Assembly: GCA_902619615.1 (NCBI GenBank)
Contig: CACNFD010000002.1
Span: forward strand, 1 to 64,000
DNA from: an uncultured SAR116 cluster alpha proteobacterium
Lineage (GTDB): Bacteria > Pseudomonadota > Alphaproteobacteria > Puniceispirillales > Marisalimonadaceae
Direction: 5' to 3'
DNA: 64,000 nt
This document shows positions 9,367 through 38,906 of the stretch, piece after piece (the first letter of the stretch is position 1; each line of letters opens with the position of its first letter). The position numbers were made by a program, and so were the translations under genes. The notes under the pieces are model-generated. The model did no database searches. It worked only from the letters and a program-made list of their open reading frames with translations, and was not told where the DNA came from.

Positions 9367-9410
9367 AATACTTCAACCATAATATAATTAGGTAACCTAA
9401 TGTTTGAAGG

Positions 9411-10583
9411 TTATTTATTAGCCAAAATCTCTGTAGCTTTAGCAATTCCCCCTTTTTGGTAAGGTATACCTGCCATTTCAAAACCTATTTCTATTCCATT
9501 TAATGTACCCATTAACATTAAGTCATTAAAATCACCAAGATGGCCTATTCTAAAAACTTTTCCTGCAAGTTTCGAAAGTCCACTACCTAGAGACATATTT
9601 AAATTTTCTAAAATTATTTTTCTTAGAATATCGGCATTATGATTTTTTGGTAACATAACAGCTGTTAAAACATTTGAAAAATCCTTTTCTTCTTTGCATA
9701 CAGTCTCAAAGCCCCATGCTTGAACAGCAGCCCTTGTTGCTTGAGCATGTCTTTCATGTCTATAAAAAACATTATCAAGCCCCTCTTCATGAAGCATATC
9801 AATCGCTTCTTTTAATCCGTATAATAGATTAGTTGCAGGTGTATAAGGAAAAGAACCTGATTTGTTTGCTTCTATTTGCTCTTCCCAATCCCAGTAAGAT
9901 CTCCGCATACCTGAAGTTTTAGACATTTTGAGCGCCTTTTCTGATATTGCATTGAAGGATAATCCAGGTGGCAACATAAGCCCTTTTTGAGATCCAGAAA
10001 CTGTAATATCAACACCCCATTCATCATGTTTATACTCCATGGATCCTAAACCTGAAATAGTATCAACCATCAATAAAGCATCATGATTAGCTGAGTTCAA
10101 TGCTTTCCTAACTTCTTCAATTCTTGAAGTACAACCTGTAGAGGTCTCATTATGAACTACACAAACTGCTTTTATCTGTTTTTCAGTATCTTTTTCTAAT
10201 CTCTCATAAATTTTTTCAGGCTCAGCCCCTCTTTGCCAATCGGTTTTCAAAAACTCAGTTTTTATTCCAAGTCTAAGCGCCATTTTATTCCATAAAGATG
10301 CAAAATGACCAGTTTCCACCATAAGAACTAAGTCGTCTTCTCTAATTGTATTAACAAGTGCCGCCTCCCACGCACCAGTTCCTGAAGCAGGATATATGAT
10401 AACATTAGATTTAGTTTTAAAAATTGTCTTTATTCCTTCAAGACAATCATTAGCTAAATTGGAAAATTCAGGTCCTCTATGATCTATAGTAGGATAATCC
10501 ATTGCACGTAAAATTCTGTCAGGAACATTCGAAGGACCTGGTAACTGAAGAAAATGTTTGCCTGACATATAATTTTTAGTCAT
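9411..10583 (-). CDS. AGXT-family aminotransferase, serine--glyoxylate aminotransferase-like
   Basis: 'FLQLPGPSNVPDRILRAMDYPTIDHRGPEF', PLP region 'DITVSGSQKGLMLPPGLSF'. Confidence 0.88.
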   Translation of the reverse strand: MTKNYMSGKHFLQLPGPSNVPDRILRAMDYPTIDHRGPEFSNLANDCLEGIKTIFKTKSNVIIYPASGTGAWEAALVNTIREDDLVLMVETGHFASLWNKMALRLGIKTEFLKTDWQRGAEPEKIYERLEKDTEKQIKAVCVVHNETSTGCTSRIEEVRKALNSANHDALLMVDTISGLGSMEYKHDEWGVDITVSGSQKGLMLPPGLSFNAISEKALKMSKTSGMRRSYWDWEEQIEANKSGSFPYTPATNLLYGLKEAIDMLHEEGLDNVFYRHERHAQATRAAVQAWGFETVCKEEKDFSNVLTAVMLPKNHNADILRKIILENLNMSLGSGLSKLAGKVFRIGHLGDFNDLMLMGTLNGIEIGFEMAGIPYQKGGIAKATEILANK

Positions 10584-10704: not shown

Positions 10705-13659
10705 ATGCCAGAAGGCCATGCAGATAAATTACTAGACATATTAAAAACAAAAACTTCAGCAGAAGTTTACTCTGACAATTTTAATAAAGGTAGATACGCT
10801 ACTGATGCATCAATATATCAGATGATGCCATTTGGAGTTCTAATACCCAAAACTAAATCAGATTTAATTGAAACAATTAATTATGCTTGTGAAAAAAGGG
10901 TACCTTTACTTGCACGTGGTGGCGGCACATCACAATGTGGTCAAACTGTAAATAATGCAATCGTTATTGATAATTCTAAATATCTTAATAAAGTTCTAGA
11001 TTTTGATAAAGAACAAATGACATGCGTTGTTGAACCTGGAATTGTCTTAGACGAACTTAATCGTTTTTTAAAACCACATGGGTTGTGGTTTCCTGTAGAC
11101 GTATCAACTTCAAGCAGAGCTACAATAGGTGGAATGGCTGGAAATAATAGTTGTGGTGGAAGATCAATAAGATATGGCATGATGAGGGATAATGTTATTG
11201 ATATTGAAGCTATTTTATATGATGGATCAATTTATAATTTTGGAAAATTAGAAAACAATAGTCTGCCATTTAGTAAAGGGGTTGCACCTGAAATTATTAA
11301 CAAACTCCAAAAACTAGCAAATGATAATGAAAAAGAAATTTTAGATAAATTTCCCAGTGTTCTGAGAAGAGTTGGTGGTTATAATATTGATGCATTGCTT
11401 ACTGATGCGATGGCTAGCAGACCTAATGGTAGAGTTGGTGACGGAGTTAATTTGTCTCACTTGTTGGTTGGATCTGAAGGAACGCTTGCTTTTTCATCTG
11501 CAATCACTCTTAAATTATCTCCACTTCCATCAAAAAAAATAATGGGAGTTTGTCATTTTCCATCCTTTTACGAAGCAATGGATGCTGCTCAATACATAGT
11601 GCCATTAAATCCGGTAGCTGTCGAGTTAGTGGATGATACTATGATCAGCCTAGCCCAAAAGATTGACATGTTCAAACCTACTGTAGAAGCTGTCGTAAAC
11701 GGCAATCCAAAATCATTACTTCTTGTTGAATTCGCAGAAGAGGATATGAATGAAAATCATAGAAGATTAAAAAAACTTCATCAACTAATTGGTGACCTAG
11801 GATATTCCTGGAATAAAGGCAAAAAAAATGGTGGTGTTGTTGATGTTATTAATGACAATCTTCAGTCTAAAGTTAGTGAAATGAGAAAATCTGGTTTGAA
11901 TATTATGATGTCCATGAAAGATGATGCAAAGCCAGTTTCATTCATTGAAGACTGTGCTGTAGAACTAAAAGATTTAGCAGAATACACCGATGGATTAAAT
12001 AAAATCTTTGATAAATACAATGTTAAGGGCACTTGGTATGCTCACGCTTCAGTCGGCTGTTTACATGTCAGACCTGTTTTGAATATGAAAATTCAAGATG
12101 ATGTTGATAAAATGAGAAATATTGCCAATGAAACAAGTAGCTTAGTAAAAAAATTTAAAGGCTCATATTCAGGTGAACATGGAGATGGCATAGCCCGTTC
12201 TGAATTTAATGAAGTAATGTTTGGCAAAAAGATGATTGAAATATTTAGAATCATTAAAAGTTCTTTTGACCCTTTTAATATCTTTAATCCAGGGAAGATT
12301 GTGGATGCTCCAAAATTAGATGCAAGAGATTACTTCAGATATGCGCCATCTTATAATGCTAAAAATATTGATACTATTTTAAACTGGTCTTCTTGGACAG
12401 GTTCAAGCGGAGGATTTCAAGGGGCTATAGAAATGTGTAATAATAATGGCTCATGTAGAAAATTAGAAGGTGGAGTTATGTGTCCTTCTTTTAGGGTAAC
12501 AAAAGATGAGAAGGACTCTACAAGAGGAAGAGCAAATTCTCTTAGATTAGCTCTTTCAGGACAGCTTGGTAAAGATGCTTTATTCAGTGAAAGAATGAAT
12601 GATACTATGAAACTTTGTGTTTCGTGTAAAGCATGCAAACGTGAATGTCCAACAGGCGTTGATATGTCAAAAATGAAAATTGAAATTTCAAATTTAAGAG
12701 CAAAAAAAATTGGATTAGACATTAAAAGCAAACTTGTTGCATTTCTTCCATACTATGCATCAATTGCATCAAAATTTTCTTTTATTTTCAATTTAAGAGA
12801 TAAGCTCCCTGGATTGGCAAAACTGAGTGAAATTTTTCTTGGCATCACAGCAAAGAGGCCTCTTCCAAAATGGAGACAGGATTATTTTAGAGATAATGAG
12901 TTACCAAGTAATTTAAGTGAAAATAAAAAATCTATTCCTGTTATTTTATTCGTTGATACATTTAATAGATATTATGAACCTGAAAACGTAAGATCAGCAA
13001 TCAAAGTTTTAAAAAAAGCAGGCTACTTCCCATTTATTCCAACTTTAGAAAATTCAAGTAAAGCACTTTGTTGTGGTAGAACATATCTAACCAATGGACT
13101 TATTAATCATGCAAAAAATGAGGTTTTAAAAATATTAGAAACATATAAACCTTACCTTAAAAATGGTATATCTATTGTTGGTATAGAACCTTCTTGTATT
13201 CTTTCATTTAGGGACGAAATACCCAATTTAATAAAAAATAAAGAAACCAATTATTTAAAAAACAACTCATATACATTTGAAGAATTACTATCAAAGCATT
13301 GTGAAAAATTAAAATTCAAAAATTTAACTAAAAAAGTCTTACTTCATGGTCACTGTCATCAAAAAGCTTTTGATGTAGTAAAACCAATTGAAAATATATT
13401 AAAAAATATTGAAGGTGTTGAAGTTGAAACAATTGAAACAAGCTGTTGTGGAATGGCAGGTTTTTTTGGTTATGACAAGAACACCTACAATATTTCAATG
13501 AAGATGGCCAATGAAAAACTTTTCCCAGCAATAATAAAAAATAAAGGTGAAATAACTATTATAGCTGATGGGACATCTTGTAGATGTCAGATTAAGGATG
13601 GTCTGAATAAGGAAGCTATTCATATAGCTAAATTTCTTGATCAAAATATAATTTACTAA
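10705..13659 (+). CDS. FAD-binding and 4Fe-4S/CCG-domain oxidoreductase (YdiJ / D-2-hydroxyacid dehydrogenase-like)
   Basis: 984 aa; 'LLARGGGTSQCGQTV' FAD_binding_4, 'YSGEHGDGIARSEF', 'CVSCKACKRECP', CCG motifs 'ALCCGRTYL' and 'SCCGMAGFFGY'. Confidence 0.93.
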   Translation: MPEGHADKLLDILKTKTSAEVYSDNFNKGRYATDASIYQMMPFGVLIPKTKSDLIETINYACEKRVPLLARGGGTSQCGQTVNNAIVIDNSKYLNKVLDFDKEQMTCVVEPGIVLDELNRFLKPHGLWFPVDVSTSSRATIGGMAGNNSCGGRSIRYGMMRDNVIDIEAILYDGSIYNFGKLENNSLPFSKGVAPEIINKLQKLANDNEKEILDKFPSVLRRVGGYNIDALLTDAMASRPNGRVGDGVNLSHLLVGSEGTLAFSSAITLKLSPLPSKKIMGVCHFPSFYEAMDAAQYIVPLNPVAVELVDDTMISLAQKIDMFKPTVEAVVNGNPKSLLLVEFAEEDMNENHRRLKKLHQLIGDLGYSWNKGKKNGGVVDVINDNLQSKVSEMRKSGLNIMMSMKDDAKPVSFIEDCAVELKDLAEYTDGLNKIFDKYNVKGTWYAHASVGCLHVRPVLNMKIQDDVDKMRNIANETSSLVKKFKGSYSGEHGDGIARSEFNEVMFGKKMIEIFRIIKSSFDPFNIFNPGKIVDAPKLDARDYFRYAPSYNAKNIDTILNWSSWTGSSGGFQGAIEMCNNNGSCRKLEGGVMCPSFRVTKDEKDSTRGRANSLRLALSGQLGKDALFSERMNDTMKLCVSCKACKRECPTGVDMSKMKIEISNLRAKKIGLDIKSKLVAFLPYYASIASKFSFIFNLRDKLPGLAKLSEIFLGITAKRPLPKWRQDYFRDNELPSNLSENKKSIPVILFVDTFNRYYEPENVRSAIKVLKKAGYFPFIPTLENSSKALCCGRTYLTNGLINHAKNEVLKILETYKPYLKNGISIVGIEPSCILSFRDEIPNLIKNKETNYLKNNSYTFEELLSKHCEKLKFKNLTKKVLLHGHCHQKAFDVVKPIENILKNIEGVEVETIETSCCGMAGFFGYDKNTYNISMKMANEKLFPAIIKNKGEITIIADGTSCRCQIKDGLNKEAIHIAKFLDQNIIY

Positions 13660-13699
13660 AAACAATTTAAGATTTAGTCTATTTTGTTAAGAGGAAAGA

Positions 13700-16045
13700 A
13701 TGCCAAATAAAATTAGAAAGCCAACATCGTTTCATTGGGGTAGTTATTATGCTGAAATTGAAGATGATAAGCTTGTTGGCATGCGCCCATATGAAAATGA
13801 TACAAACCCTTCTAAAATAGCTAATGGTATTGTAAACAGCATTGACGACGAATTACGAATAAGATTTCCTCATGTTCGTAAAGGTTACCTTAGAGAAATA
13901 CGTAAAGAACTAGCTAATAGTAAAATGTCGTTGACTGGCAAGCGTGGTAGGGAAAAAAGAGGCTCTGAAAATTTTGAAGCTGTTAGCTGGGAAGAAGCGA
14001 GTAATATTGTTGCTTTTGAGCTGAATAGAGTCAAAAAAAAGTATAAAAACAAAGCCTTCTTTGCTGGCTCTTATGGTTGGGGTTCTGCTGGAAGATTTCA
14101 CCATGCCCAAAGTCAACTTCATAGATTTTTTAATTGTTATGGTGGATATACTAGATCAGTAAACACCTATTCTTATGCAGCCAGTGAAACAATTATGCCT
14201 CACGTTATTGGTATGTCATATCGACAATTTCTTGATAATCACACAGATTGGAATAATATTAAGGACAATTCTGAATTAATAGTTATGTTTGGCGGATTGC
14301 CTCTAAAAAATGCCCAAGTAAACTCTGGAGGTGTTGGAAAACACACGACTAGAGAATATATAAAAAAATGTGCACAAAAAGGTATAGAATTTATAAATAT
14401 TAGCCCAATGGAAATGGAAGCTGATATAATAAGTAAAGCTGAATGGGTAAAAATAAGACCAGGTACAGATACAGCTTTAATGCTTGGTGTTGCATTTATT
14501 TTAGAAACAGAAAGCCTAGCTGATAGAGATTTTATAAACAAATATTGTGTTGGATACGACAAATTTCTTCAATACCTAAAGGGTATATCCGATGGCAAAG
14601 CTAAGACACCCTTCTGGGCATCTAAAATTACTGGCATTCCAAGTAATACAATTTATAATTTAGCAAAGAAAATGTCTTCAAACAGAACGATGATTACGGG
14701 AGCTTGGGCCCTGCAACGACAGCAGTATGGTGAACAACCACACTGGATGATAGCTGTTCTAGCTTGTATGCTAGGACAAATAGGACTTCCTGGTGGAGGT
14801 TTTGGCCTTGGATACAGTGCAGAAAACGGCATTGGAAATCCAGTCCAACATTTTAAGTGGCCTTCCTTAGAACAATTCAATAATCCTGTTTCAGAGTTTA
14901 TTCCTGTCGCTAGAATTTCAGATATGCTATTACAACCAGGAAAAATTTTTTCTTATAATGGAAAAGAAATTAAATACCCAGATATAAAGTTAGTATATTG
15001 GGCAGGTGGTAATCCGTTTCATCATCAGATGAACTTAAAGAAGCTTAATAAAGCTTTTAAACAACCTGACACAATAATTGTAAATGAAATTTGGTGGAAT
15101 AGTCTTGCAAGACATTCAGATATTATATTACCAGCAACAACCTCATTAGAAAGAAATGATATAAGTATTAAACATTGGGATCAGATGATTTCACCAATGT
15201 ATAAAGCAATTGAACCCGTAGGAGAGTCAAGATCAGACTATGAAATTTTTTCCGAAATTGCCTCAAAATTAAATTTTAAAGATAAATTCACTGAAGGAAA
15301 AGATGAAGATAAATGGCTAAGGTCTATTTGGGATAAAGCAAGAAGTAAAGCAAAAGATGAAGGATTTACTTTACCTGAGTATGAAAAATTTTGGAAAAAT
15401 GGTTTTCAAGAGGTATTATCTCCCAAAAAACAAATTATTTTATTAGAACAATTTAGAAAAGATCCTGAAAAAAATCCTATCTCAACACCGTCAGGAAAAA
15501 TAGAAATTTTTTCTGAAACAGTTGAAAGTTTTAACTATAAGGATTGTCCTGGACACCCCACTTGGTTAGAACAAGAAGAATGGCTAGGTTCAAATTTAAC
15601 AAAACAATACCCACTTCAACTAATATCAGGTCAACCCCACAATAGGTTACACAGTCAACTTGATAATGGTTCTGAGAGCCAAAGTTATAAAATATTAGGA
15701 AGGGAACCCATTAAAATTCATCCACAAGATGCTAAAACAAGAAAGTTAGTTGACGGGGATATTGTTGAGGTATTTAACAAGAGGGGTAAATGCCTTGCTG
15801 GAGTGATAATAAGTAATGAAGTCATGAAAGGCGTAGTATTTCTACCTGTAGGCGCTTGGTATGATCCAATAAATGATGGCGAATTTTGTATACATGGAAA
15901 TCCAAATGTTTTGACAGAAGACATTGGCACTTCATCTTTAGCTCAAGGACCATCAGCTCATTCGACTTTAGTAGAAATAAAAAAATATACCAAAGAATTA
16001 CCAGAAATTAATGTTTTACATAAACCCAAAATTGTAAAAAAGTAG
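13700..16045 (+). CDS. molybdopterin-dependent oxidoreductase, BisC/TorA/DMSO-reductase family
   Basis: 781 aa; 'GSYGWGSAGRFHHAQSQLHRFFNCYGGYTRSVNTYSYAASETIMPHVIG', 'VNEIWWNSLARHSDIILPATTSLERNDI'; no TAT signal at N-terminus. Confidence 0.93.
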   Translation: MPNKIRKPTSFHWGSYYAEIEDDKLVGMRPYENDTNPSKIANGIVNSIDDELRIRFPHVRKGYLREIRKELANSKMSLTGKRGREKRGSENFEAVSWEEASNIVAFELNRVKKKYKNKAFFAGSYGWGSAGRFHHAQSQLHRFFNCYGGYTRSVNTYSYAASETIMPHVIGMSYRQFLDNHTDWNNIKDNSELIVMFGGLPLKNAQVNSGGVGKHTTREYIKKCAQKGIEFINISPMEMEADIISKAEWVKIRPGTDTALMLGVAFILETESLADRDFINKYCVGYDKFLQYLKGISDGKAKTPFWASKITGIPSNTIYNLAKKMSSNRTMITGAWALQRQQYGEQPHWMIAVLACMLGQIGLPGGGFGLGYSAENGIGNPVQHFKWPSLEQFNNPVSEFIPVARISDMLLQPGKIFSYNGKEIKYPDIKLVYWAGGNPFHHQMNLKKLNKAFKQPDTIIVNEIWWNSLARHSDIILPATTSLERNDISIKHWDQMISPMYKAIEPVGESRSDYEIFSEIASKLNFKDKFTEGKDEDKWLRSIWDKARSKAKDEGFTLPEYEKFWKNGFQEVLSPKKQIILLEQFRKDPEKNPISTPSGKIEIFSETVESFNYKDCPGHPTWLEQEEWLGSNLTKQYPLQLISGQPHNRLHSQLDNGSESQSYKILGREPIKIHPQDAKTRKLVDGDIVEVFNKRGKCLAGVIISNEVMKGVVFLPVGAWYDPINDGEFCIHGNPNVLTEDIGTSSLAQGPSAHSTLVEIKKYTKELPEINVLHKPKIVKK

Positions 16046-16056: not shown

Positions 16057-16761
16057 TTGAGCATTGAAATTTGTATCATTAATCCTTATGCATCTGCTAT
16101 ATCAAATCAAAAAATCAAATATTGTGCTCTAAAAGTGATTGATAAAGATTCTAGTATTTTAATAAATAACGAAAATTCTGATGAAGACTATTTTGACCTA
16201 CATAGCGAAACAATAAATATTTCAAAATTGCTTAAAGTAGTTGAAAAAAATAATTCTTCGGACGCTTTCATAATTATTTCTTTTGAAGATATTGGTGTCG
16301 ATACAATTAGAAAAGTCACTTCAAAACCAATAATTGGTATAGGCGAAGCTTCTTTTTATACTGCAAACATAATTGCAAATAAGTTTTCAGTAATTACGAA
16401 TTTATCTCATTCACATGAAGCCTTAAAAAACAACTTAATTAAATATGATATGGATCACAAGTGCGTATCGATGAAATCAATTGAAGTTCCTGTATTAGAT
16501 ATGGATACAATGTCAAAATCAAATTTAAATAAATTAAATAACGAAATTCAAAGAACAATAACAGAAGATGATCCGGAGGCTATAATTATAACTAGCCCTG
16601 GAATTTTAAATTTATCAAAAAATTTAAGTAATAAGTTCAATATACCTATTATCGAAGGAGTAACAGCTGCAACAGCTCTAATGGAAAATTTTGCTAAATT
16701 AGATTTACAAATAAAAAAATTTGTTTCTAAACCTATTAGAAATTTTGGAATACCAATTTAA
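16057..16761 (+). CDS. Asp/Glu/hydantoin racemase-superfamily protein lacking both catalytic Cys
   Basis: Collinear with the 40722-41453 paralog; TTG start; 'IIISFEDIG' and 'IITSPGI' replace 'VIACFDDTG' and 'ILGCAGM'. Confidence 0.82.
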   Translation: MSIEICIINPYASAISNQKIKYCALKVIDKDSSILINNENSDEDYFDLHSETINISKLLKVVEKNNSSDAFIIISFEDIGVDTIRKVTSKPIIGIGEASFYTANIIANKFSVITNLSHSHEALKNNLIKYDMDHKCVSMKSIEVPVLDMDTMSKSNLNKLNNEIQRTITEDDPEAIIITSPGILNLSKNLSNKFNIPIIEGVTAATALMENFAKLDLQIKKFVSKPIRNFGIPI

Positions 16762-16766: not shown

Positions 16767-18392
16767 TTATAAAAACTCGTTTTCTAAATCTTTATCTAAC
16801 AGGTTTTGATCTCTTTTAGAGTAATCTCCTAAACCAGCACCTCCAGGAGTGTAAATTTGCAAGATATCTCCTGCTTTGATAAGTTGTGTCCCTTTACCAT
16901 TTAACTTTCCTTTACCCTTAATTGAGACTTGTCCTGGTTTGCCGTTACCTCCATTTAAACGTCCTCTTGCAGGAAATTTAATTCTATCAAAAGAGGCCAA
17001 AAGATCCATATCCTCGTCAATTGCTGATTTAATTTCAATTACTTGACCTAAACCACCATTATACTTTCCTTTACCACCACTTCCTGGATTAAATTCTTTT
17101 TTCAGGAACAATAATGGAGCAACAGCTTCATTTATCTCAACTGGAGTACCTTTCACACCTGAAGGGTAAGCAGTAGCTGACAATCCATCTTTGTTTGGTC
17201 TTGCACCAGTTCCACCATTAACTACGGCAGTTACTGCAAATAATGAGTTGTTGTTTGCTCCCCTATCAGTCTTCCCACGAAATGTAATATTCCACAAACA
17301 AGAAGCACCTTCTGCAGGAACTTTTTCTGGTATAGCTTTTTCTAAACAACCAAAAACTACATCTGGAAGCATTTGACCAATAATATGTCTTGCGCAAACT
17401 GCGGCAGGATATGGAGCGTTTAAAATCGATCCTAATGGTGCATCAATTTCAAAAGGTTTTAGAGACCCAGCATTGTTCGGTATTTCAGAACTTAGAAGAC
17501 AACTCAAACCAAAACAGGTGTAAGCCTTGGTATATGATAGTGGAACATTTATACCAAACTTGGATTTGTCAGAAGTACCAGTATAATCAACAAATATTGA
17601 TTTTTCAGAAACCTTTAGTTTCGCCTCTAGTTTTATGTCTTTTTCAAACCCATCTATCATCATAGAATTTTCATATACGCCATTTGGGATTTTTTTAATT
17701 TCATTTTCTACAGCTGATAATGACTTATTATATATAAAATCAGATAGATTTTTTAAGTCGTTAATTTCAAATTCGTTCATCATTTCTACTAATCTTTTGC
17801 AACCTATGTCATTGCATGCAGCTAATGAGAAGACATCTCCTTCTGTTTCTACTGGTTGTCTTGTGTTTTGGCTAACTAATTTTAGTAATGTTTTATTCAT
17901 AACACCTCTGTCAGCTAATTTTAACATAGGTATATAAAGACCTTCCATGTGAATATCGGTAGCATCAGGACCTACACCTAATCCTCCAATATCTGTCAAA
18001 TGAGATGTACATGAAAAAAGGCCAACTATTTTGTTATCTTTGAAACAAGGGGTAGTTAATACAAAATCGTTCAGATGCCCTGTTCCCATCCATGGATCAT
18101 TGGTAATAAAAATGTCTCCTTCATTCATTGAGTTAAGCGGAAAATGTTCAATAAAATGCTTAACAGACTCTGCCATAGAATTAACATGGCCAGGAGTACC
18201 TGTAACTGCCTGAGCCATCATTCTACCTTCTAGATCAAATACTCCAGCAGATATATCTCCACATTCACGAACAATTGGACTAAACGCAGTTCTAACTAAT
18301 GTTTGACCTTGTTCTTCAACAACAGAAAGAAGTCTATTCCACATTACTTGATTTTGAATATTATTTTTGTCATCAATCAAATCATTGTTCAT
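16767..18392 (-). CDS. hyuB: hydantoinase B/oxoprolinase family (HyuB)
   Basis: 'VRECGDISAGVFDLEGRMMAQAVTGTPGHVNSMAESVKHF', 'FITNDPWMGTGHLNDFVL', 'NPGSGGKGKYNGGLGQVIEI'. Confidence 0.95.
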   Translation of the reverse strand: MNNDLIDDKNNIQNQVMWNRLLSVVEEQGQTLVRTAFSPIVRECGDISAGVFDLEGRMMAQAVTGTPGHVNSMAESVKHFIEHFPLNSMNEGDIFITNDPWMGTGHLNDFVLTTPCFKDNKIVGLFSCTSHLTDIGGLGVGPDATDIHMEGLYIPMLKLADRGVMNKTLLKLVSQNTRQPVETEGDVFSLAACNDIGCKRLVEMMNEFEINDLKNLSDFIYNKSLSAVENEIKKIPNGVYENSMMIDGFEKDIKLEAKLKVSEKSIFVDYTGTSDKSKFGINVPLSYTKAYTCFGLSCLLSSEIPNNAGSLKPFEIDAPLGSILNAPYPAAVCARHIIGQMLPDVVFGCLEKAIPEKVPAEGASCLWNITFRGKTDRGANNNSLFAVTAVVNGGTGARPNKDGLSATAYPSGVKGTPVEINEAVAPLLFLKKEFNPGSGGKGKYNGGLGQVIEIKSAIDEDMDLLASFDRIKFPARGRLNGGNGKPGQVSIKGKGKLNGKGTQLIKAGDILQIYTPGGAGLGDYSKRDQNLLDKDLENEFL

Positions 18393-20454
18393 TATTTTTA
18401 TATTCCATTTGTAAAAAATTATTACTTAAAACTTTTGTATTAAAGTTATTTGAAACAACAATTGTAGTTTGAGCCTCTGTAATTACACATTGACCTTGTA
18501 TCAAATCTCCTGGATTTAACTTTGTCCTTTCATAATTTGGTATTTTAATTTTTTCTCCACTTTCATAATCACAGAAATCAATTAGAGAATTTTCTTTAAT
18601 TTTTTTATAAGAGTCTAATTTTAAATATTCATTTGAATTCTCGCCCATAATAGATAATGATAAAGACCAAGTTAAAATTTCTATGTCAGCATTTGGCAGA
18701 ATTCTAGAATATAGTTTTTCGTAATTTGCTTCAAAAGAGTTTTTGATTTTTTTTGCATCTTGATCTGATAATACCTTGTTATTAATAGGCACTTTGATTT
18801 CATGACCTTGTCCCGCATAACGCATAAATGCAAAACGTTCTTCAACAAATTCTGTTTCTTTAGAATTATTCTGTATAATTTTTTCTGCTTCACTCCTCAT
18901 AGAATTAAGTAAATTATTAACTTTTTCAAAATTAAATTTATTTAATAACATTCTAAGACTTTTTACTACTTCGTATCCCACAGGTGCTCTCAAAAATCCA
19001 ACTGCTGAACCTACACTAGCATTTGTCGGAATAATTATTTTTTTTACTCTTAATTTTTCTGCAACCCTAGAAATATGAAGAGGAGCGGCTCCTCCAAAAC
19101 CAATTAGAGTTCTGTTTGATGTTTCATGACCTTGTTCAACTGTATGAACTCTAGCAGCATTTGACATCGTTTCATCTACTATTTCAGATATTGCTAATGC
19201 AGCTGTTTCATTTTTCATATTAAGCTTTTCACTTATTTTTTTATTGATTGCATTTTTAGCAAATTCTTTGGATAAGTTTATTTTACCCTCAGCGAACTTG
19301 TCAGGATCAATCTTCCCTATAACTAAATCTGCATCTGTAATTGTTGGATTGTCGCCACCATTAGAATAGCATGCTGGGCCTGGATTTGAGCCAGCACTAT
19401 CTGGGCCAGTAATTATTTGATCCAACTTATTTACTCGAGCTATTGATCCACCTCCTGCACCAATCTCAACCATTTCGATTACAGGAATTCTTAAAGGGAA
19501 ACCACTTCCTTTTTTAAATCTTGCTTTTCTATCTACTTCAAACTCTCGAGCTTTAATTGCTTTTTGGTTTTCGATTATTGTTATCTTAGCTGTTGTTCCT
19601 CCCATATCGAACGAAATTACTTTATCTAATTTTAAGTCTTCAGCAATAGAAGTTGCTAAAATAGCTCCACCTGCAGGACCAGACTCAACCAACCTAACTG
19701 GGTTGTTACACGCACTCGACACGTTAGTTAAAGTACCACCAGAGGTCATTAATAAAAGGGGACAATTAAAACCTTTTTGTTTTAATTCACTTTCTAATTT
19801 TTTTAAATATCTAGACATTAAAGGTTTAATATATGAATTAACTACAGTAGTAGTAAAACGTTCATATTCTCGTATTTCTGGGCAGACATCAGAAGATAAA
19901 CTTACCTCTACATCTGGCAAATGTTTTAATAAAAATTCTTTTAAATCATTTTCATTTTTAGAATTTGCATAAGAATGTAAAAAACCAATTCCAATACTTT
20001 CAAATTTTTCTTTTTTGATAGTATCAACTAAACTCTGAAATTTTTTTGCATTAATAGGTTTTATTATTGATCCATTAATATCAGTTCTTTCTTCAATTAC
20101 ATATCTATGCTTTCTTGGAACAAGTGACATAGTTTTTTCAATAAGTATATCATACTGGTCAAACCTACTTTCATAACCAATGTCTAAAACATCTCTAAAA
20201 CCCTCAGTTGTTATAAAACAAGTCTTGGCACCCTTTCTTTCAATGACTGCATTTGTTGCCAAAGTCGTACCATGAATGATCATCTTTATATCTGACGATT
20301 TGATTTTATTTTCTTGAAATAATTCTTCTACACCTTCAATAACTGCAACTTCAGGTTGAGAAGTTGAGGTTAGTACTTTTTTACTAAAAAGGTTAGTTTT
20401 ATCTTCTAAAACTATATCTGTAAAAGTACCACCGATATCAATAGCAAGTCTCAT
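18382..20454 (-). CDS. hyuA: hydantoinase/oxoprolinase family (HyuA)
   Basis: 'MRLAIDIGGTFTDIVLED', 'IIHGTTLATNAVIERKGAKTCFITTEGFRDVLDIGYESRFDQYD', 'SFDMGGTTAK'; overlaps hyuB by 11 nt. Confidence 0.95.
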   Translation of the reverse strand: MRLAIDIGGTFTDIVLEDKTNLFSKKVLTSTSQPEVAVIEGVEELFQENKIKSSDIKMIIHGTTLATNAVIERKGAKTCFITTEGFRDVLDIGYESRFDQYDILIEKTMSLVPRKHRYVIEERTDINGSIIKPINAKKFQSLVDTIKKEKFESIGIGFLHSYANSKNENDLKEFLLKHLPDVEVSLSSDVCPEIREYERFTTTVVNSYIKPLMSRYLKKLESELKQKGFNCPLLLMTSGGTLTNVSSACNNPVRLVESGPAGGAILATSIAEDLKLDKVISFDMGGTTAKITIIENQKAIKAREFEVDRKARFKKGSGFPLRIPVIEMVEIGAGGGSIARVNKLDQIITGPDSAGSNPGPACYSNGGDNPTITDADLVIGKIDPDKFAEGKINLSKEFAKNAINKKISEKLNMKNETAALAISEIVDETMSNAARVHTVEQGHETSNRTLIGFGGAAPLHISRVAEKLRVKKIIIPTNASVGSAVGFLRAPVGYEVVKSLRMLLNKFNFEKVNNLLNSMRSEAEKIIQNNSKETEFVEERFAFMRYAGQGHEIKVPINNKVLSDQDAKKIKNSFEANYEKLYSRILPNADIEILTWSLSLSIMGENSNEYLKLDSYKKIKENSLIDFCDYESGEKIKIPNYERTKLNPGDLIQGQCVITEAQTTIVVSNNFNTKVLSNNFLQMEYKNNEQ

Positions 20455-20481
20455 TTATTGAAATCCTTTTTAAAAAAACAA

Positions 20482-21780
20482 TTATTGAATCATGAAGTTG
20501 ACAGGTGCAGTAACAATTTGAGGGAAAATTATGATAATGACAATACTTAATAACATTAAAAAGAAAAAGGGTAATGCTGCTTTTGTAACTTTCAATATAT
20601 CTCTACCTGTCATTCCTTGAAGTACAAAAAGATTAAATCCGACTGGAGGAGTGATTTGAGCCATTTCAACAACTATTACAGTAAAAATTCCAAACCAAAT
20701 TAAATCTATACCAGCCGTCTGAACCATTGGTAATACCACAGATGCAGTTAATACCATCATGGATGTTCCTTCAAGGAAACAGCCAAGGAAAATATATAAT
20801 ATTGTTAGAATTGCTAGAAGTGAAAGTTGTGATAATTCAAAGTCATTTACTATTTGTCCTAATTGTTTTGGAATGCCAGTGTACCCCATAGCAACAGATA
20901 GAAAAGCCGCTCCTACAATTATAAAATTAATCATGCAAGAAGTTTTCACAGCTCCCATCAAACTATCCATAAAACTTTTAAAATTAAGAGATTTTGAAGA
21001 CCAAGCAAGTATTAGTGCTCCTATTACACCAATAGTTGCAGCCTCAGTTGGCGTTGCGTAACCACCATAAATTGAACCAAGAACAAAAAATATTAATGCA
21101 ACTACTGGAAGCAAGTTTCTTGCTGCCTTTAGTTTTTCTAAAAAGGTATAACTAACATTTTGTTTGGGTGCTAAAGAAGGATTAAGTTTAGATCTAATTG
21201 CAATATATGACATAAAAATTAAAATAATCATTATACCTGGTAAAACGCCAGCTATGAAAAGTCTCGATATTGAAACTTGAGCCAAAACACCGTAAACAAT
21301 TAGCATTATTGAAGGTGGAATTAACAACCCTAATGTACCAGAACCAGCTAAAGAACCTATACTGAGCGTTTCATCATAATTTCTTTTCTTTAACTCTGGA
21401 ATACTCATTCTACCTATTGTGGCGCAAGTTACTGCACTAGAGCCTGCAACAGCTGCCATTATACCACAACCAACTACATTTACATGCAACAACCCTCCAG
21501 GTAAATTAGACAGCATTGGTGCAAGACCTTTAAACATTTCTGAGGAAAGTCTTGTTCTAAAAAGTATTTCACCCATCCATATAAACAAAGGTAAGGCAGT
21601 CAATGCCCAATTCCAACTTGCATCCCATAAAGTGCTAGCGAGAAGAGATCCTACGGGTGCTGGAGTAAAAAATTCAAGTAATATATATCCTAAAGTAATT
21701 AATGCTGGGGCCACCCATATACCCAAAGATAAAAGGAAAAGAAGTAAAATAAATAAAATTAATGATAATCCAGTAGCCAT
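20482..21780 (-). CDS. dctM: TRAP transporter large permease (DctM family)
   Basis: 'AAVAGSSAVTCATIGRMSIPELKKRNYDETLSIGSLAGSGTLGLLIPPSIMLIVYG'. Confidence 0.96.
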   Translation of the reverse strand: MATGLSLILFILLLFLLSLGIWVAPALITLGYILLEFFTPAPVGSLLASTLWDASWNWALTALPLFIWMGEILFRTRLSSEMFKGLAPMLSNLPGGLLHVNVVGCGIMAAVAGSSAVTCATIGRMSIPELKKRNYDETLSIGSLAGSGTLGLLIPPSIMLIVYGVLAQVSISRLFIAGVLPGIMIILIFMSYIAIRSKLNPSLAPKQNVSYTFLEKLKAARNLLPVVALIFFVLGSIYGGYATPTEAATIGVIGALILAWSSKSLNFKSFMDSLMGAVKTSCMINFIIVGAAFLSVAMGYTGIPKQLGQIVNDFELSQLSLLAILTILYIFLGCFLEGTSMMVLTASVVLPMVQTAGIDLIWFGIFTVIVVEMAQITPPVGFNLFVLQGMTGRDILKVTKAALPFFFLMLLSIVIIIIFPQIVTAPVNFMIQ

Positions 21781-21791
21781 AAATTTCTCTT

Positions 21792-22307
21792 CTAAGTATT
21801 ATCTTTCAATATTGGATCAGCATTTTTTACATAAGATGGTTGTTCTTTTTTCCAAACTGTAAAAAAATCATCAATAAGAGCGATTAAAAAAATAGTTACA
21901 CCTATAGACATGCTTATCCTAGGGATCCAAAAAGGTATTGCCAAGAGACCTGGGCTAATATCCTCAAAAATAAATGAAAAATATACAAAGTCCCAACTCC
22001 AATATGTTAAATAACTAGTAATTATGATACAAAAAGACAAAGAGAAGAGTTCTTGGTATCTTCTAACTTTTTTTCCTAATAATCTTGTAAATAAAGTTAC
22101 TCTTATATGTTCACCACTGTGAAAGGTATATGACAACCCAAAAAAAGTTAGAGCAGCCAAACTAAAACCAGCAGTTTCTGTTGAATCGACTGTAATATTT
22201 ACAAATCTTCCTAAAATTTGAGCAACTATGGTCAAAGCAATTAGGACCATAAAAAAGGCAGAGAGATAGCCACTATATAAATATAATTTATTCAATTTAT
22301 TTCTCAT
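21792..22307 (-). CDS. dctQ: TRAP transporter small permease (DctQ family)
   Basis: 171 aa 4-TM protein between DctM and DctP. Confidence 0.9.
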   Translation of the reverse strand: MRNKLNKLYLYSGYLSAFFMVLIALTIVAQILGRFVNITVDSTETAGFSLAALTFFGLSYTFHSGEHIRVTLFTRLLGKKVRRYQELFSLSFCIIITSYLTYWSWDFVYFSFIFEDISPGLLAIPFWIPRISMSIGVTIFLIALIDDFFTVWKKEQPSYVKNADPILKDNT

Positions 22308-22325
22308 GGCTATCTCTATAAAATT

Positions 22326-23300
22326 TTAACGCATAGATAAGTATCTATCTAAGACAGCATTAGCCTCCGGACTAGCTTTTGATCTCCAATTTTTCATCAT
22401 TTCAAGACCAATACTTTTCATTTTGCTAATTACCTCATCTGGGGCATTTTTAGAAGACATGCCATTTTTCTTGAGAATACCAATTTGCTTTTTAGTTGTC
22501 TCAGCACTCATCTCCCAACCTCTAAGCTCAGCTTTCTTTGCGGCTGCTAACATGTTGCTTTGATCACCTTTTGATAAAGCATTAAAAGCTTTTTTGGTAA
22601 CGACAACTGCATTTTTACTAAATATAGCTCCAGCATAAGTAAAATGCTTAGTATTATCCCATGCTTGAATATCTATACCTGTTTGCGGACTTGTAAATAA
22701 TGCCTCAATAAGACCTGTAGAAAATGCCTGTGGAATTTCTGCAAAAGGAAGAATTGTTGCATTAAAACCTAACATAGACCCCATTTGTTGTGTGGCTGTA
22801 GAATAAATTCTAAGTTTTTTACCCTTAAAGTCAGAAACACTGTTTACAGGAAACTTAGTATAAAACCCTTGTCCTGGCCATGGAGCAGTATACAAAATCA
22901 TAAGTCCTTTTTTAGCGAATTTTTCTTGAAGATATTCCATTTGCACATCTTTTAATAACCAAGCACTTGAATAATCTGGTGCAATAAATGGTAATCCAGC
23001 TAAAATATACATCGGGTCTTCATTACCATAAATACCTAATCTAATTTCTCCAATTGGAATTTGTCCTCTTTGAAGAGATGTTTTTATTGCATCTAACTTA
23101 ATTAGAGTATCATTTGGATTTAAATTAATATTAACTGAAGTAGTGGACTTAACATCGTCTATAAATTTAATTATATTTTGAGTATGAAAGTTACTTTTTG
23201 GATAGCCTGAAGCCATTGTCCAATCTGCTGCATGCAAATTAAAACTAAAGACAGAAACAGCTACTAAAAGAAACGTTCTTTTAAAAATTTTTGTAATCAT
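22326..23300 (-). CDS. dctP: TRAP transporter substrate-binding protein (DctP family)
   Basis: Signal peptide; 'DFKGKKLRIYSTATQQMGSMLGFNATILPFAEIPQAFSTGLIEALFTSPQTG'. Confidence 0.95.
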   Translation of the reverse strand: MITKIFKRTFLLVAVSVFSFNLHAADWTMASGYPKSNFHTQNIIKFIDDVKSTTSVNINLNPNDTLIKLDAIKTSLQRGQIPIGEIRLGIYGNEDPMYILAGLPFIAPDYSSAWLLKDVQMEYLQEKFAKKGLMILYTAPWPGQGFYTKFPVNSVSDFKGKKLRIYSTATQQMGSMLGFNATILPFAEIPQAFSTGLIEALFTSPQTGIDIQAWDNTKHFTYAGAIFSKNAVVVTKKAFNALSKGDQSNMLAAAKKAELRGWEMSAETTKKQIGILKKNGMSSKNAPDEVISKMKSIGLEMMKNWRSKASPEANAVLDRYLSMR

Positions 23301-23331
23301 TTTTAATTCCTTTCATCGTAAATGTATAATA

Positions 23332-23360
23332 ATTAAGCATTTAGGAAAATAAAGAGTCAA
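23332..23360 (-). promoter_or_regulatory. candidate sigma70-type promoter for dctP
   Basis: Minus strand TTGACT (23360-23355), 17-nt spacer, CTTAAT (23337-23332); about 30 nt upstream of dctP start in the only sizeable gap of the minus-strand gene string. Confidence 0.35.
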
Positions 23361-23421
23361 ATTGAATTAAAGGTAACCAAAAATTTTATTAAGTTACTTC
23401 ATATAAATGTTAAAAATTTAA

Positions 23422-24324
23422 TCAGAAAAAATTGAATGAATCTTTTTCTAAGCAATATTTTGCTATATCCATTCTTTTAGGTATCCATACATTTTCATAA
23501 GTTTTTATGTATTTTATAAAATCTTCAAGCCCCTTAATTCTTCCTGGTCTTCCAATAATTCTGGGATGTAATCCTATAGACATCATTCTTAAAGAACCAT
23601 CATCTGTTTCCGAGAAAAGTTGATTAAATGATTCTTTACAATAAATATTAAAATCATCGCCACGTACAAAACCATTATTACCGTCATATCTCATGTCATT
23701 GGTATCAAATGAATATGGAATTATAACAAGTTTATGATCATTTTTTTTTAATACGTAAGGTATGTCGTCATTATATGCATTAGAATCATATGTAAATCCT
23801 CCATGCTCAATCAAAAGATCCCTAGTAAATGGAGATGTACTAGATTTTGTGTGCCAACCAACTGGGGGATGACCAGAAAGTTTGAGTATTGAGGAGTAAC
23901 AATCATTAATTATTTGTTTTTCCTTTTCTCTAGTTAGATAAGCATGAGAAATCCACTTAACGCCATGAGCAGATATTTCATGATTTCTAGTTAAAATTTC
24001 ATCTATTAACCAAGGAGAATTTTCTAATGCCAAGGAACAACAACTGAATGTTGCCTTTACGTTATATTTGTCAAAAACGTCAAAAACGCGCCAAATACCT
24101 GATCTTAAACCGTATTCAAAATGAGATTCCATACAAAGATCAGGTATATCTAGTATTTTAATTTTATTATTTTCGTATACATGCTCATTTTGACTATCGC
24201 CTGATGAAATCGAGAGCTCTGCACCTTCTTCAATGTTTACAACAAATGATACTGCAATTTTATTTTCTTGAGGCCAAAGAATTTTTGGCTTTTCTTTTCC
24301 ATAACCAATAAAATTTCTTTTCAT
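23422..24324 (-). CDS. puuE: polysaccharide-deacetylase-fold allantoinase (PuuE-like)
   Basis: 'IGYGKEKPKILWPQENKIAVSFVVNIEEGAE', 'EYGLRSGIWRVFDVFDKYNV', 'EISAHGVKWISHAYLTREKE' match PuuE. Confidence 0.82.
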   Translation of the reverse strand: MKRNFIGYGKEKPKILWPQENKIAVSFVVNIEEGAELSISSGDSQNEHVYENNKIKILDIPDLCMESHFEYGLRSGIWRVFDVFDKYNVKATFSCCSLALENSPWLIDEILTRNHEISAHGVKWISHAYLTREKEKQIINDCYSSILKLSGHPPVGWHTKSSTSPFTRDLLIEHGGFTYDSNAYNDDIPYVLKKNDHKLVIIPYSFDTNDMRYDGNNGFVRGDDFNIYCKESFNQLFSETDDGSLRMMSIGLHPRIIGRPGRIKGLEDFIKYIKTYENVWIPKRMDIAKYCLEKDSFNFF

Positions 24325-25074
24325 TTATGAACCATTATCAACTTTGTGAGAAATCAATTCCGATAAATTTTTATCTATCCCAATGGATGATTTAGGAGGT
24401 AATTTGGATTTATTTATAATATTTTGATTCATAACGACAGCTAATTCTGCTTGTTTTACAGCCGCTTCAGCACAATCTATCACAGGTACACTAATTTCTT
24501 TTTGAACAACTTTTTTAAATCCGGACAATGGAGCCCCTGCAAATATTACCACCTCACCACCATCTATATTGATAGCATTTTTTGCAGATTCAACTAAAGA
24601 TTTCTTCTGAAGCGATTGAATTTTATCAATAGTTAAATTAACACCATCTATAGCTCTAAATCCTGCATATCTAGACTGTAATCCTAGTAATTCAACACTT
24701 TCTTCATACCAAGATGCCATTGCATTAGTAAATGATATAATTGAGAATTTTTTACCAAATAAGCAAGCACTTAACATTGCTGCCTCCCCTAATCCAATTA
24801 TCGGCAAGTTAAACAAACTTTTTGCTGGTATCAGTCCTGGATCACCAAAGGCAGCTATAATTACAGCATCATATTGTGGATGTATTTCTGCTAATTTTTC
24901 TAAAACTAAAGTACCAGTAATTTGGGCTTCTACTTTAGTTGATATGTATGGGAAACCCTTTTCTGCTGTTTTAGGAATTAGAATTGTTTCACTACTTGCA
25001 ACCAACTTGGCAGTTTCATAGAGTGTTTCAGTTATAGATTCAGAAGTGTTTGGGTTATACAATAATATTTTCAT
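24325..25074 (-). CDS. Asp/Glu/hydantoin racemase-superfamily protein (Cys-less subgroup)
   Basis: 'MKILLYNPNTSESITE' N-terminus; 'IIAAFGDPGL' and 'FAGAPLSG' in place of Cys motifs; abuts puuE-like start. Confidence 0.82.
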   Translation of the reverse strand: MKILLYNPNTSESITETLYETAKLVASSETILIPKTAEKGFPYISTKVEAQITGTLVLEKLAEIHPQYDAVIIAAFGDPGLIPAKSLFNLPIIGLGEAAMLSACLFGKKFSIISFTNAMASWYEESVELLGLQSRYAGFRAIDGVNLTIDKIQSLQKKSLVESAKNAINIDGGEVVIFAGAPLSGFKKVVQKEISVPVIDCAEAAVKQAELAVVMNQNIINKSKLPPKSSIGIDKNLSELISHKVDNGS

Positions 25075-25078
25075 GGCA

Positions 25079-26032
25079 TTAATTAATTCCTTTTGGAATT
25101 GTAAGACCTTTTTCAGTTAATTTTAAGTGTAATCTTTTTAATAAATAATTCATTTCCTTAATATCGTCTTCTGTAAGAACAGGCCCTGGAGATCTCACAT
25201 TTAACGATTTAATAATACCTCTCTGTTGTAAGACAAATTTTCTTAAGGCTAAACCTATTCCAAATTGCTGTTCATGCCTTATAAGTGGTAAATATATATC
25301 AAATAAGTCTTCTGCTTTTTCTTTATCATGATTAAAAAATAAATTATGTAAATTCACCAACATTTCAGTGAATGCAAAACCCGTCATAATTCCGTCAGCA
25401 CCTCTCTCAAGTTCTTGGGGAACATATAAGCCTCCATTTCCTACAAAGATGCTATATTTTCTGTTTAAATGATTATCTCTATATCTAAGAAGTCTTGATA
25501 ATTTATTATGTCCTGGGCAGTCTTCATGCTTAAACATTTCAATTGAAGGATGGTTTTCCATTATAGTATTTATAACACTTTCAGAGAAGTAAACATTAGT
25601 TGTAGGTGGATAATCCTGCAAACAAATTGGAATATCTTGAGTGCGATCTACAACTTGATTGAAGTATGATTTGATTTGATCGTCATTTTTTAGACCATTA
25701 TTACCAGATACCATAACTCCAGAGGCCCCAGCATCCATTGAAAATTTTGATAGTAATTCTAAGTTATCAAGACCAGCATTAGAAACTCCTACAATTACTG
25801 GAACACTATTAGTTAAGTTATTTACGTATCTTTTTATTAATGTTTTTTGTTCTTCAATATTAAGCTTGTGAGCCTCTCCCATAACCCCAAGGATTGTAAC
25901 CCCTGAAACTTTACTTTCTATGTAATAATTTGAAAGTCTATCGACTGATTCAAAATCAATTAAGTTTTCATTGTTAAAAGGTGTTGTTGCAATGGCAATA
26001 ACACCTTTCATATCTTTAAATTCTTTTGACAT
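25079..26032 (-). CDS. dihydrodipicolinate synthase/N-acetylneuraminate lyase family protein
   Basis: 'GVIAIATTPFNN', 'VSGVTILGVMGEAHKL', 'LQDYPPTTN' (Tyr), 'EMFKHEDCPG' (Schiff-base Lys). Confidence 0.88.
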   Translation of the reverse strand: MSKEFKDMKGVIAIATTPFNNENLIDFESVDRLSNYYIESKVSGVTILGVMGEAHKLNIEEQKTLIKRYVNNLTNSVPVIVGVSNAGLDNLELLSKFSMDAGASGVMVSGNNGLKNDDQIKSYFNQVVDRTQDIPICLQDYPPTTNVYFSESVINTIMENHPSIEMFKHEDCPGHNKLSRLLRYRDNHLNRKYSIFVGNGGLYVPQELERGADGIMTGFAFTEMLVNLHNLFFNHDKEKAEDLFDIYLPLIRHEQQFGIGLALRKFVLQQRGIIKSLNVRSPGPVLTEDDIKEMNYLLKRLHLKLTEKGLTIPKGIN

Positions 26033-26076
26033 TTACCTTCCTAAAATTTATCTGGAATAAAAATTAAATTAGCTAC

Positions 26077-26637
26077 TTAATAAGTCAAATCTTTAATTCT
26101 TAGTTCAGCAATTTTGTGAATTTCACTAATAGCAGTTTCAAATTCTTTAGTTTTACTGTTATTAACCCTCTTTTGCATATTATCTATGATCTGATTTTTA
26201 TTTAAACCTTTTACTGCAATTATAAATGGAAATTTAAATTTTAATCTATATTCATTGTTGAGATTACTTAAAATTTTAAATTCTTCATCAGAGCATTGAT
26301 CTAAACCAGCAGACTTTTGTTCATCTTCTGAAAACTTTGTTAATTTTTCTTTTTTTTGAAGTTTTTTCCCAAGTTCAGGATGAGCATTAATCAAAATTAA
26401 TTTCTCTGTTTCTGAAGAATCATCAACTATTTTTTTCATCATCAATTGTAATTCTTCTTTTGTTTGAATCTCACTAATATTCTCATTTAACAATCTTTCT
26501 GGTACCCATTTAGAATGCTCATAAACGCTTTTTAGTAGATCTATTATTTCTTCTCTTTCCATTTTTTTAGAAAGAAATTTGAAAGTTTTATTGTACATTA
26601 TTTTACCTGTCATTATTATGTCAGTGAATTTAAGCAT
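26077..26637 (-). CDS. uraD: 2-oxo-4-hydroxy-4-carboxy-5-ureidoimidazoline (OHCU) decarboxylase
   Basis: 'VYEHSKWVPERLLNE', 'NAHPELGKK', 'SAGLDQCSDEEFKILSNLNNEYRLKFKFPFIIAVKGLNK'; true start may be 26613 or 26598. Confidence 0.92.
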   Translation of the reverse strand: MLKFTDIIMTGKIMYNKTFKFLSKKMEREEIIDLLKSVYEHSKWVPERLLNENISEIQTKEELQLMMKKIVDDSSETEKLILINAHPELGKKLQKKEKLTKFSEDEQKSAGLDQCSDEEFKILSNLNNEYRLKFKFPFIIAVKGLNKNQIIDNMQKRVNNSKTKEFETAISEIHKIAELRIKDLTY

Positions 26638-36455: not shown

Positions 36456-37466
36456 TTAAACCAATGAATTTTCTTTTGTTTTATCCCAACTTATAAAAAT
36501 TTCATCGTCAATATCAAATTTATTTTTTAAAAAAATCTCATCACCTATGGATACACTTAATAGTCCAAAATCTTTTGTTAAACCTGTAACTTTGACAATT
36601 TGACCTTGATATTCAATTTCACTCACAGTCATTGGATGTGAATCTTTTGATTTTATATTATTGATTATTCGTATGTGGTCCATTCTGATTGAATAAGATT
36701 TGTTATTTTTTGAAATTACGTTGTGTCCTCCAACAAAATTTGCAATAAACTCGTTTTTGGGCTTATTAAAAACTTCATAAGGGTCACCAACTTGTTCAAT
36801 TTTTCCATTATTCATTACAACAATCATGTCAGCTAAAGCCATTGCTTCATCTTGAGAATGAGTAACATGAATGAATGATATACCCAGCTTTTTTTGTAAT
36901 GTTTTTAATTCACTTCTCATTTTTATTCTTAAAAAAGGGTCTAAAGCAGACAAAGGTTCATCTAGAAGTAATATAGAAGGATTAGTAATCAAGGCTCTCG
37001 CTAAAGCTACTCTTTGTTGTTGTCCCCCTGATAGCTGGTTAGGATATCTATTAGAATAATCTTCCATTTGAACTAATTTCAGAATTTCTAGAGATTTGTC
37101 ATATCTTTCTTTTTTTTTAATGCCACGCATCTTTAATGCAAAGGCAACATTGTCCAGACAAGATAAATGTGGAAAAAGAGCATAATTTTGAAACATCATT
37201 GCAGTCCCACGTTTTGCTGGGGGTAAATCATTTATGATACTTGAACCTAAAAGAATGTCACCTCCTGATATTTCTTCATGTCCAGCAATCATTCTAAGAG
37301 TTGAGGTTTTACCACAACCTGAAGGACCCAGAAAACAACAATATGTTCCTGCTGGTATTTTTAAATTTATACTGTCAACGGCTATGGTTTCACCATATTT
37401 TTTTGTGAGAATCGCAAATTCTAAATTTTCTGGGTTATTCAATTTTTTTGCCTGTTTTTTATTCAA
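36456..37466 (-). CDS. ABC transporter ATP-binding protein (PotA-like)
   Basis: Walker A 'LGPSGCGKTST', signature 'LSGGQQQRVALARAL', Walker B 'SILLLDEPLSAL', C-terminal TOBE-like region. Confidence 0.96.
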   Translation of the reverse strand: MNKKQAKKLNNPENLEFAILTKKYGETIAVDSINLKIPAGTYCCFLGPSGCGKTSTLRMIAGHEEISGGDILLGSSIINDLPPAKRGTAMMFQNYALFPHLSCLDNVAFALKMRGIKKKERYDKSLEILKLVQMEDYSNRYPNQLSGGQQQRVALARALITNPSILLLDEPLSALDPFLRIKMRSELKTLQKKLGISFIHVTHSQDEAMALADMIVVMNNGKIEQVGDPYEVFNKPKNEFIANFVGGHNVISKNNKSYSIRMDHIRIINNIKSKDSHPMTVSEIEYQGQIVKVTGLTKDFGLLSVSIGDEIFLKNKFDIDDEIFISWDKTKENSLV

Positions 37467-37482
37467 ATTAAATTCTTAATAT

Positions 37483-37509
37483 AAAATTGATTAGACTTTA
37501 ATCAATTTT
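37483..37509. promoter_or_regulatory. perfect 11-bp inverted repeat, candidate operator
   Basis: AAAATTGATTA-gactt-TAATCAATTTT in divergent intergenic region. Confidence 0.6.
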
Positions 37510-37524
37510 TAAAAAAAACAATTG

Positions 37525-38896: not shown

Positions 38897-38906
38897 AAAA
38901 ATATTC

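Follow-up and report, generated by a model that had tools for sequence, protein, structure and literature searches.

The locus

The window, a stretch of 64,000 nucleotides, is part of contig C2 of a 2.16-Mb genome that is 99% complete and whose closest relatives by sequence are SAR116-cluster Alphaproteobacteria. At positions 16767-26637 it carries nine consecutive open reading frames on the minus strand, and the subject of this analysis is the cassette formed by eight of them, dapL-racA-puuE-dctP-dctQ-dctM-hyuA-hyuB, which includes a tripartite ATP-independent periplasmic (TRAP) transporter. The gene-family names of all nine reading frames are backed by Pfam and NCBIfam, and their order and spacing are exactly those given in the initial annotation: from uraD to hyuB the intergenic gaps are 44, 4, 0, 121, 18, 11 and 27 nucleotides, followed by an overlap of 11 nucleotides. 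The genes are as follows.

26077-26637, minus strand: uraD, 2-oxo-4-hydroxy-4-carboxy-5-ureidoimidazoline decarboxylase of the purine pathway, a neighbour only (TIGR03164, 173 bits)
25079-26032, minus strand: dapL, dihydrodipicolinate synthase/N-acetylneuraminate-lyase family, first gene of the conserved unit (Pfam; Lys168 and Tyr141 conserved)
24325-25074, minus strand: racA, PF01177 protein of allantoin-racemase fold with neither catalytic cysteine (PF01177, 126 bits)
23422-24324, minus strand: puuE-like gene (product PuuE2), polysaccharide-deacetylase-fold cyclic amidohydrolase outside the canonical PuuE clade (TIGR03212, 287 bits, below cut-off; tree; GWHTKS motif)
22326-23300, minus strand: dctP, TRAP solute-binding protein in the sister clade of the 5-oxoproline-binding DctP6/DctP7 (Pfam, PDB matches, tree)
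21792-22307, minus strand: dctQ, TRAP small permease (PF04290)
20482-21780, minus strand: dctM, TRAP large permease (TIGR00786, 375 bits)
18382-20454, minus strand: hyuA, hydantoinase A/oxoprolinase subunit (PF01968, PF05378, PF19278; 11-nucleotide overlap with hyuB)
16767-18392, minus strand: hyuB, hydantoinase B/oxoprolinase subunit, last gene of the conserved unit (PF02538, 491 bits)

Around this string lies a purine island with uraH, a PuuD-like gene (labelled by its location and its membrane/cytochrome-like sequence, since no NCBIfam model matched), a PRK13404-type hydantoinase (HydA), allantoicase, ureidoglycolate lyase, 8-oxoguanine deaminase and xanthine dehydrogenase. Beyond the purine genes come a Pot-like ATP-binding cassette (ABC) transporter and then racB, a second gene of the racemase family.

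Eight genes gained and lost together

Across 58 genomes from this family of SAR116 bacteria the eight genes from dapL to hyuB travel together, as loci read directly show. Relatives of racA (at least 69% identity) occur in 28 of the 58 genomes, as do relatives of dctP, and 27 genomes have both; the two exceptions are due to contig ends, one contig stopping within racA (G057) and another starting within dctP (G020). Full hyuA relatives (at least 64% identity) are found in 28 genomes, G013 included, and relatives at this level are confined to the cassette genomes, G013 and a contig-edge piece in G038 (L200), where the contig starts inside hyuA. Such a gene order far exceeds what chance would produce. 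In G026 (C19:1374-2239) and G042 (C15:12137-13016) frameshifts interrupt the cassette puuE, through either sequencing error or gene decay, with racA and dctP intact.

The position of the cassette varies with the genus. In genus g1 it stands between uraD and racC, in genus g2 (L035, L036) between puuD and upp, with uraD lying across uraH and away from it, and in genus g4 either between puuD and potA (L037) or after genes adjoining hydA (L038), which makes at least three positions over three genera, always within the purine island. At four loci without the cassette (L032, L033, L039 and L045) nothing separates uraD from the facing racC, and the purine genes remain intact. Because the cassette is apart from uraD in L035 and uraD occurs without it at these four loci, as in many genomes, uraD is not a member of the system, contrary to the initial annotation; the gene order given there proved conserved for the eight genes, as a facultative unit, and not for uraD. 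The attention it drew to the DapA-like and racemase-like proteins as the odd partners was well placed. Judged from these loci, the eight genes come and go as one block and stay within the purine island.

Purine catabolism is, on the same distribution, independent of the cassette. Genomes that lack it have HydA with the full purine set, and also RacB, and no PuuE-like gene above about 125 bits was found in them; in the order's other family (L259-L262) the purine genes, among them puuD and ureidoglycolate lyase, are accompanied by a canonical PuuE. This bears on an alternative in which the cassette is part of SAR116 purine use, its TRAP transporter importing a purine or allantoin and its PuuE and racemase processing allantoin. 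The constant placement within the purine island suits such a role, as does the allantoin-racemase fold of RacA, and main-text passages of Braakman et al. (2025; PMC11698098) list an ‘allantoin racemase’ and a ‘purine TRAP transporter’ among the SAR116 purine genes, which vary in presence and absence. We nevertheless hold it to be rather improbable, as a complete purine set, HydA and a two-cysteine RacB included, is still present where the cassette is missing, and as PuuE2, RacA and DctP each carry features that do not fit it.

PuuE2, RacA and DapL

Against TIGR03212 PuuE2 scores 287.4 bits, below the cut-off of 424.6 bits; no genome of the family reaches this cut-off, which may simply be strict. 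In a tree of 49 rows the PuuE proteins fall into two clades (support 100/99). The canonical clade holds the Pseudomonas fluorescens PuuE (3CL6) and proteins encoded beside uraD, allantoicase or xanthine dehydrogenase, while the PuuE2 clade, in which the P. fluorescens protein is not included, joins 18 further proteins to those of the cassette. Of these 18 non-SAR116 members, 16 have a transporter of the TRAP or Pot-type ABC kind within 6.5 kb and about 12 a PF01177 racemase-like gene nearby. Scaffold residues are mostly common to both clades, with consistent differences (PuuE2/canonical) at F69/Y, H158/Y, S161/R and F206/L and with GWHT[RK]S where the canonical proteins have GWYTGR, which suggests that the pocket, and hence the substrate, has changed. 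Tree and motif agree that the cassette ‘PuuE’ is not of the purine allantoinase lineage, so that the allantoin-opening role first assigned to it loses its support, and this also speaks against a part for the cassette in purine use.

The closest solved structures to RacA are allantoin racemases, and its model, of moderate quality (mean predicted local distance difference test score, pLDDT, of 70), gives Foldseek template-modelling (TM) scores of 0.76-0.77 to 5LG5/3QVK. In OpaE, mutating the catalytic cysteine pair abolishes activity (PMC12661438). The corresponding pair in HpxA is Cys79 and Cys184, and RacA has neither, a further point against the processing of allantoin; the description ‘Cys-less’ in the initial annotation is right for these two positions and wrong for the protein as a whole, which has C104 and C201. 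The cysteine state of its relatives was read from an unbiased hidden Markov model search and a tree: no member of the widespread RacA clade (26 rows, 100/99) has either catalytic cysteine, a wider set of 37 rows around it lacks them too, and RacB, which in the window carries both, groups with HpxA. RacA relatives stand beside HydA in many Bradyrhizobium genomes, with a TRAP transporter, an amidase and HydA in Defluviimonas, with an ABC transporter, PuuE2, an amidase and HydA in Salipiger, and with HydA, an amidase or PuuE alongside, in Methylobacterium. By this record RacA is a conserved protein and not a decayed racemase. Arylmalonate decarboxylase was dropped as an identity for RacA, the single cysteine of that family being missing as well.

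The cysteine pair varies elsewhere in the family. In the alignment, PDB entry 5lfd, which is from P. fluorescens and bears the name allantoin racemase, retains a single catalytic cysteine, glycine standing at the first of the two positions; not every protein so named therefore has the pair. A third PF01177 protein in the window, racC (16057-16761, plus strand), has no catalytic cysteine and groups with RacB on a long branch, and from this placement it probably lost the pair independently of RacA; the gene is kept beside that of a BisC-like molybdoenzyme in genomes with and without the cassette.

In DapL the Schiff-base Lys168 and Tyr141 are invariant in eight aligned rows and align with 3DZ1, an uncharacterised protein that is also its best structure match. 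The protein reads GVMGEA where GTTGES is usual, and its score of 82.8 bits against TIGR00674, the model of DapA proper, falls short of the cut-off of 206.15 bits. Relatives at E<=1e-60 occur in 41 of 385 genomes of the class; a HydA-type hydantoinase lies within a few kilobases at 12 of 20 such loci, two of the 12 also having a nitrilase-type N-carbamoylase.

The TRAP transporter and HyuAB

The nearest PDB matches of DctP are Bordetella DctP7 and DctP6 (233 and 206 bits), followed by 6wgm (165 bits) and a drop to 57 bits. DctP6 and DctP7 bind 5-oxoproline (PMC5812351, PMC12344293, PMC13274462), and the reading first in the lead took the TRAP-HyuAB half for 5-oxoproline (pyroglutamate) uptake joined to an ATP-dependent 5-oxoprolinase, with dapL-racA-puuE separate or serving a minor analogue. 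Besides the PDB matches, this draws on PxpA, which was not found in the 58 family genomes, and on Pseudosulfitobacter, where HyuAB adjoins a DctP of 49% identity from the clade of the cassette protein. It was lowered, and now appears unlikely, because of the DctP tree neighbours and the fused HyuAB present genome-wide.

In the midpoint-rooted tree the cassette DctP belongs to a separate clade of 16 rows (99/96), outside and sister to the clade of DctP6 and DctP7 (23 rows, 100/99). Within 7 kb, 13 of 21 loci of the DctP6/DctP7 clade have PxpABC or a fused HyuAB and none has a PuuE-type neighbour; outside it, 5-oxoprolinase neighbours occur at 0 of 15 loci and PuuE-type neighbours at 9 (counted by hand, with SAR116 counted once among the 15). 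Fisher p-values of about 9e-5 for 5-oxoprolinase neighbours and about 5e-5 for PuuE-type neighbours are too optimistic, the loci being related by descent. The nearest relatives outside SAR116 (72-76% identity; G137, G437 and G164, of other families) adjoin PuuE2 and racemase-like genes, in two cases HydA too, and have no HyuAB adjoining, and two further relatives at 43-44% identity adjoin PuuE2 as well; of these five loci, four are next to a PF01177 racemase-like gene and the same two next to HydA. The cassette DctP also shows conserved differences from the DctP6/DctP7 clade, including A30-S31-G32, an extra R87, S167, F179 and T221. The AlphaFold model of DctP, with a pLDDT of 38, was unusable for a comparison of ligand pockets.

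TRAP receptors hold the carboxylate of their ligand with an arginine (PMC4646407), which we equate with the conserved Arg164 of DctP. As this residue is kept, DctP is sister to 5-oxoproline binders and allantoin has no carboxylate, allantoin is an unlikely ligand of the transporter and hence an unlikely substrate of the system, for which it had been proposed; purines, likewise without a carboxylate, fit no better. The tree and the kept arginine suggest a ligand probably related to 5-oxoproline, namely an acid whose five-membered ring is an amide or a ureide. Two other candidates were discarded. Ectoine uptake (TRAP Ueh/Tea, EutA) was dropped, 3fxb, which we take to be an ectoine-type receptor, matching DctP only at E 5.6e-7, and locus L181, considered as a link of a cassette-type TRAP to dapL-hydA, was rejected, its TRAP sitting with PxpABC.

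Both HyuAB subunit families (PF01968/PF05378 and PF02538) are encoded together in the cassette, and no NCBIfam equivalog exceeds its cut-off, the partial matches being to caprolactamase, acetophenone carboxylase, N-methylhydantoinase and 5-oxoprolinase. Most genomes of the family, with or without the cassette, have in addition a fused HyuA-HyuB protein of about 1,200 amino acids (L197, G000:C15:3-3434). Since its relatives at 53-58% identity adjoin 5-oxoproline-type TRAPs, the fused protein is likelier to be the 5-oxoprolinase than the cassette HyuAB, and by this company a 5-oxoprolinase is what it likely is. With a protein of that type already in these genomes, a cassette HyuAB acting only as a 5-oxoprolinase, which the initial annotation had set against its own proposal, is disfavoured.

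A proposed route for a carboxylated cyclic compound

We propose, with a probability of roughly 0.5, that the eight-gene cassette serves to import from outside the cell, and to open, a five-membered ring compound, a cyclic amide or ureide bearing a carboxylate. We infer this function from gene families, block behaviour, clade membership and the neighbours in other taxa, which are what can be read from sequence. DctP would bind the compound, for example an acid-bearing hydantoin, and DctQM would import it. The ring would be hydrolysed by PuuE2, by the ATP-dependent HyuAB or by both, and RacA (racemase fold, no cysteine dyad) and DapL (Schiff-base lyase/dehydratase fold) would work either on the substrate itself or on the carbon skeleton left after ring opening, the freed nitrogen and small acids then joining the end products of purine breakdown. 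Import and opening of a cyclic ureide-like compound, as initially suggested, is a reasonable reading: in distant Proteobacteria, hydantoinases or PuuE-type enzymes repeatedly have as neighbours relatives of the transporter and of the PuuE-like, racemase-like and DapA-like proteins.

Several points weigh against this proposal. The need of DctP for a carboxylate is a rule of the family and not a result on the cassette protein, and the common descent of the loci weakens the neighbour tests. Outside SAR116 the close relatives of DctP are without HyuAB, except in Pseudosulfitobacter, and in G013 (L034) hyuAB is kept with the other six cassette genes gone, so that HyuAB may have joined separately. 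A scan of the string for promoters and terminators gave hits at chance level only, and the 121-nucleotide gap between puuE and dctP splits a string whose other gaps are 0-44 nucleotides.

Some of these points would suit two independent adjoining operons, one (dapL-racA-puuE) devoted to a ureide and the other (dctPQM-hyuAB) to a different substrate. The wide gap, the persistence of HyuAB alone and the HyuAB-DctPQM pair of Pseudosulfitobacter are all in keeping with such an arrangement, as are G415 and G337, where an ABC transporter takes the place of the TRAP beside racA-puuE. It is made quite improbable by the joint presence and absence of the two halves in 27 genomes and at least three genomic positions, and by the TRAP transporter itself adjoining PuuE2 in five other genomes.

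Uptake and opening of a carboxylated ring by the whole cassette could go further still. Tentatively, and with somewhat less than an even chance, we suggest that it represents an undescribed carboxylated-cyclic-ureide pathway, with a TRAP clade of new ligand, a family of PuuE fold that is not an allantoinase and a cysteine-free enzyme of racemase fold with a different chemistry.

Other genes in the window

The Pot-like ABC transporter, racB and upp form one block (36456-42088); racB and parts of the ABC transporter recur in G164 (L242), where they show 47-64% identity and a TRAP-PuuE2-HydA set lies a few kilobases away. On the other side, adjoining the purine island and conserved, are a YdiJ-like flavin adenine dinucleotide/iron-sulphur dehydrogenase and then a BisC/TorA-family molybdopterin S/N-oxide reductase (10705-16045, plus strand), the latter at 970 bits, just below its subfamily cut-off. 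A BhcA-like glyoxylate aminotransferase stands beside malonyl-CoA decarboxylase (8062-10583, minus strand) and is a possible outlet for the glyoxylate of purine breakdown.

Significance and comparison with known systems

SAR116 bacteria belong to the common heterotrophs at the ocean surface. If the proposal is true, they draw part of their nitrogen and carbon from an unrecognised dissolved cyclic compound, and ocean surveys at present mislabel genes as ‘allantoinase’, as ‘allantoin racemase’ and perhaps as ‘purine TRAP transporter’. It also delineates two testable enzyme clades, the transporter-linked PuuE-like and the cysteine-free racemase-like proteins, which recur in Bradyrhizobium, roseobacters and others. 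A literature search found no paper on the cassette or its PuuE-like clade; the cassette is real, conserved and incompletely described. The SAR116 purine operons of Braakman et al. concern the same organisms and the same island, and HyuAB, DapL, the PuuE-like sister clade and the missing cysteines are not mentioned in those main-text passages.

Each part of the cassette resembles a known system and departs from it. The PuuE allantoinase of P. fluorescens matches PuuE2 in fold, in most invariant residues and with about 240 bits, whereas PuuE2 lies in the other clade, carries GWHT[RK]S and is linked to transporters, not to uraD or allantoicase. RacA has the fold of Klebsiella HpxA allantoin racemase (3QVJ; TM about 0.77, 30% identity) and keeps, like HpxA and the hydantoin racemases, the company of hydantoinase or allantoinase genes, but both of their catalytic cysteines are replaced throughout its clade. 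Hydantoin utilisation clusters (HydA, N-carbamoylase and hydantoin racemase) house relatives of DapL and RacA in other Proteobacteria; the SAR116 cassette differs in having no N-carbamoylase, and PuuE2 and HyuAB instead of HydA. Finally, the cassette DctP belongs to the same subfamily as Bordetella DctP6 and DctP7, with Arg164, W141/Q144/G145, QA-TG and TS-TG in common, and the TRAP-PxpABC and TRAP-fused-HyuAB loci likewise place a TRAP transporter beside a cyclic-amide hydrolase, yet the cassette DctP clade has conserved substitutions of its own and is tied to PuuE2, racemase-like proteins and a two-subunit HyuAB, not to 5-oxoprolinases.

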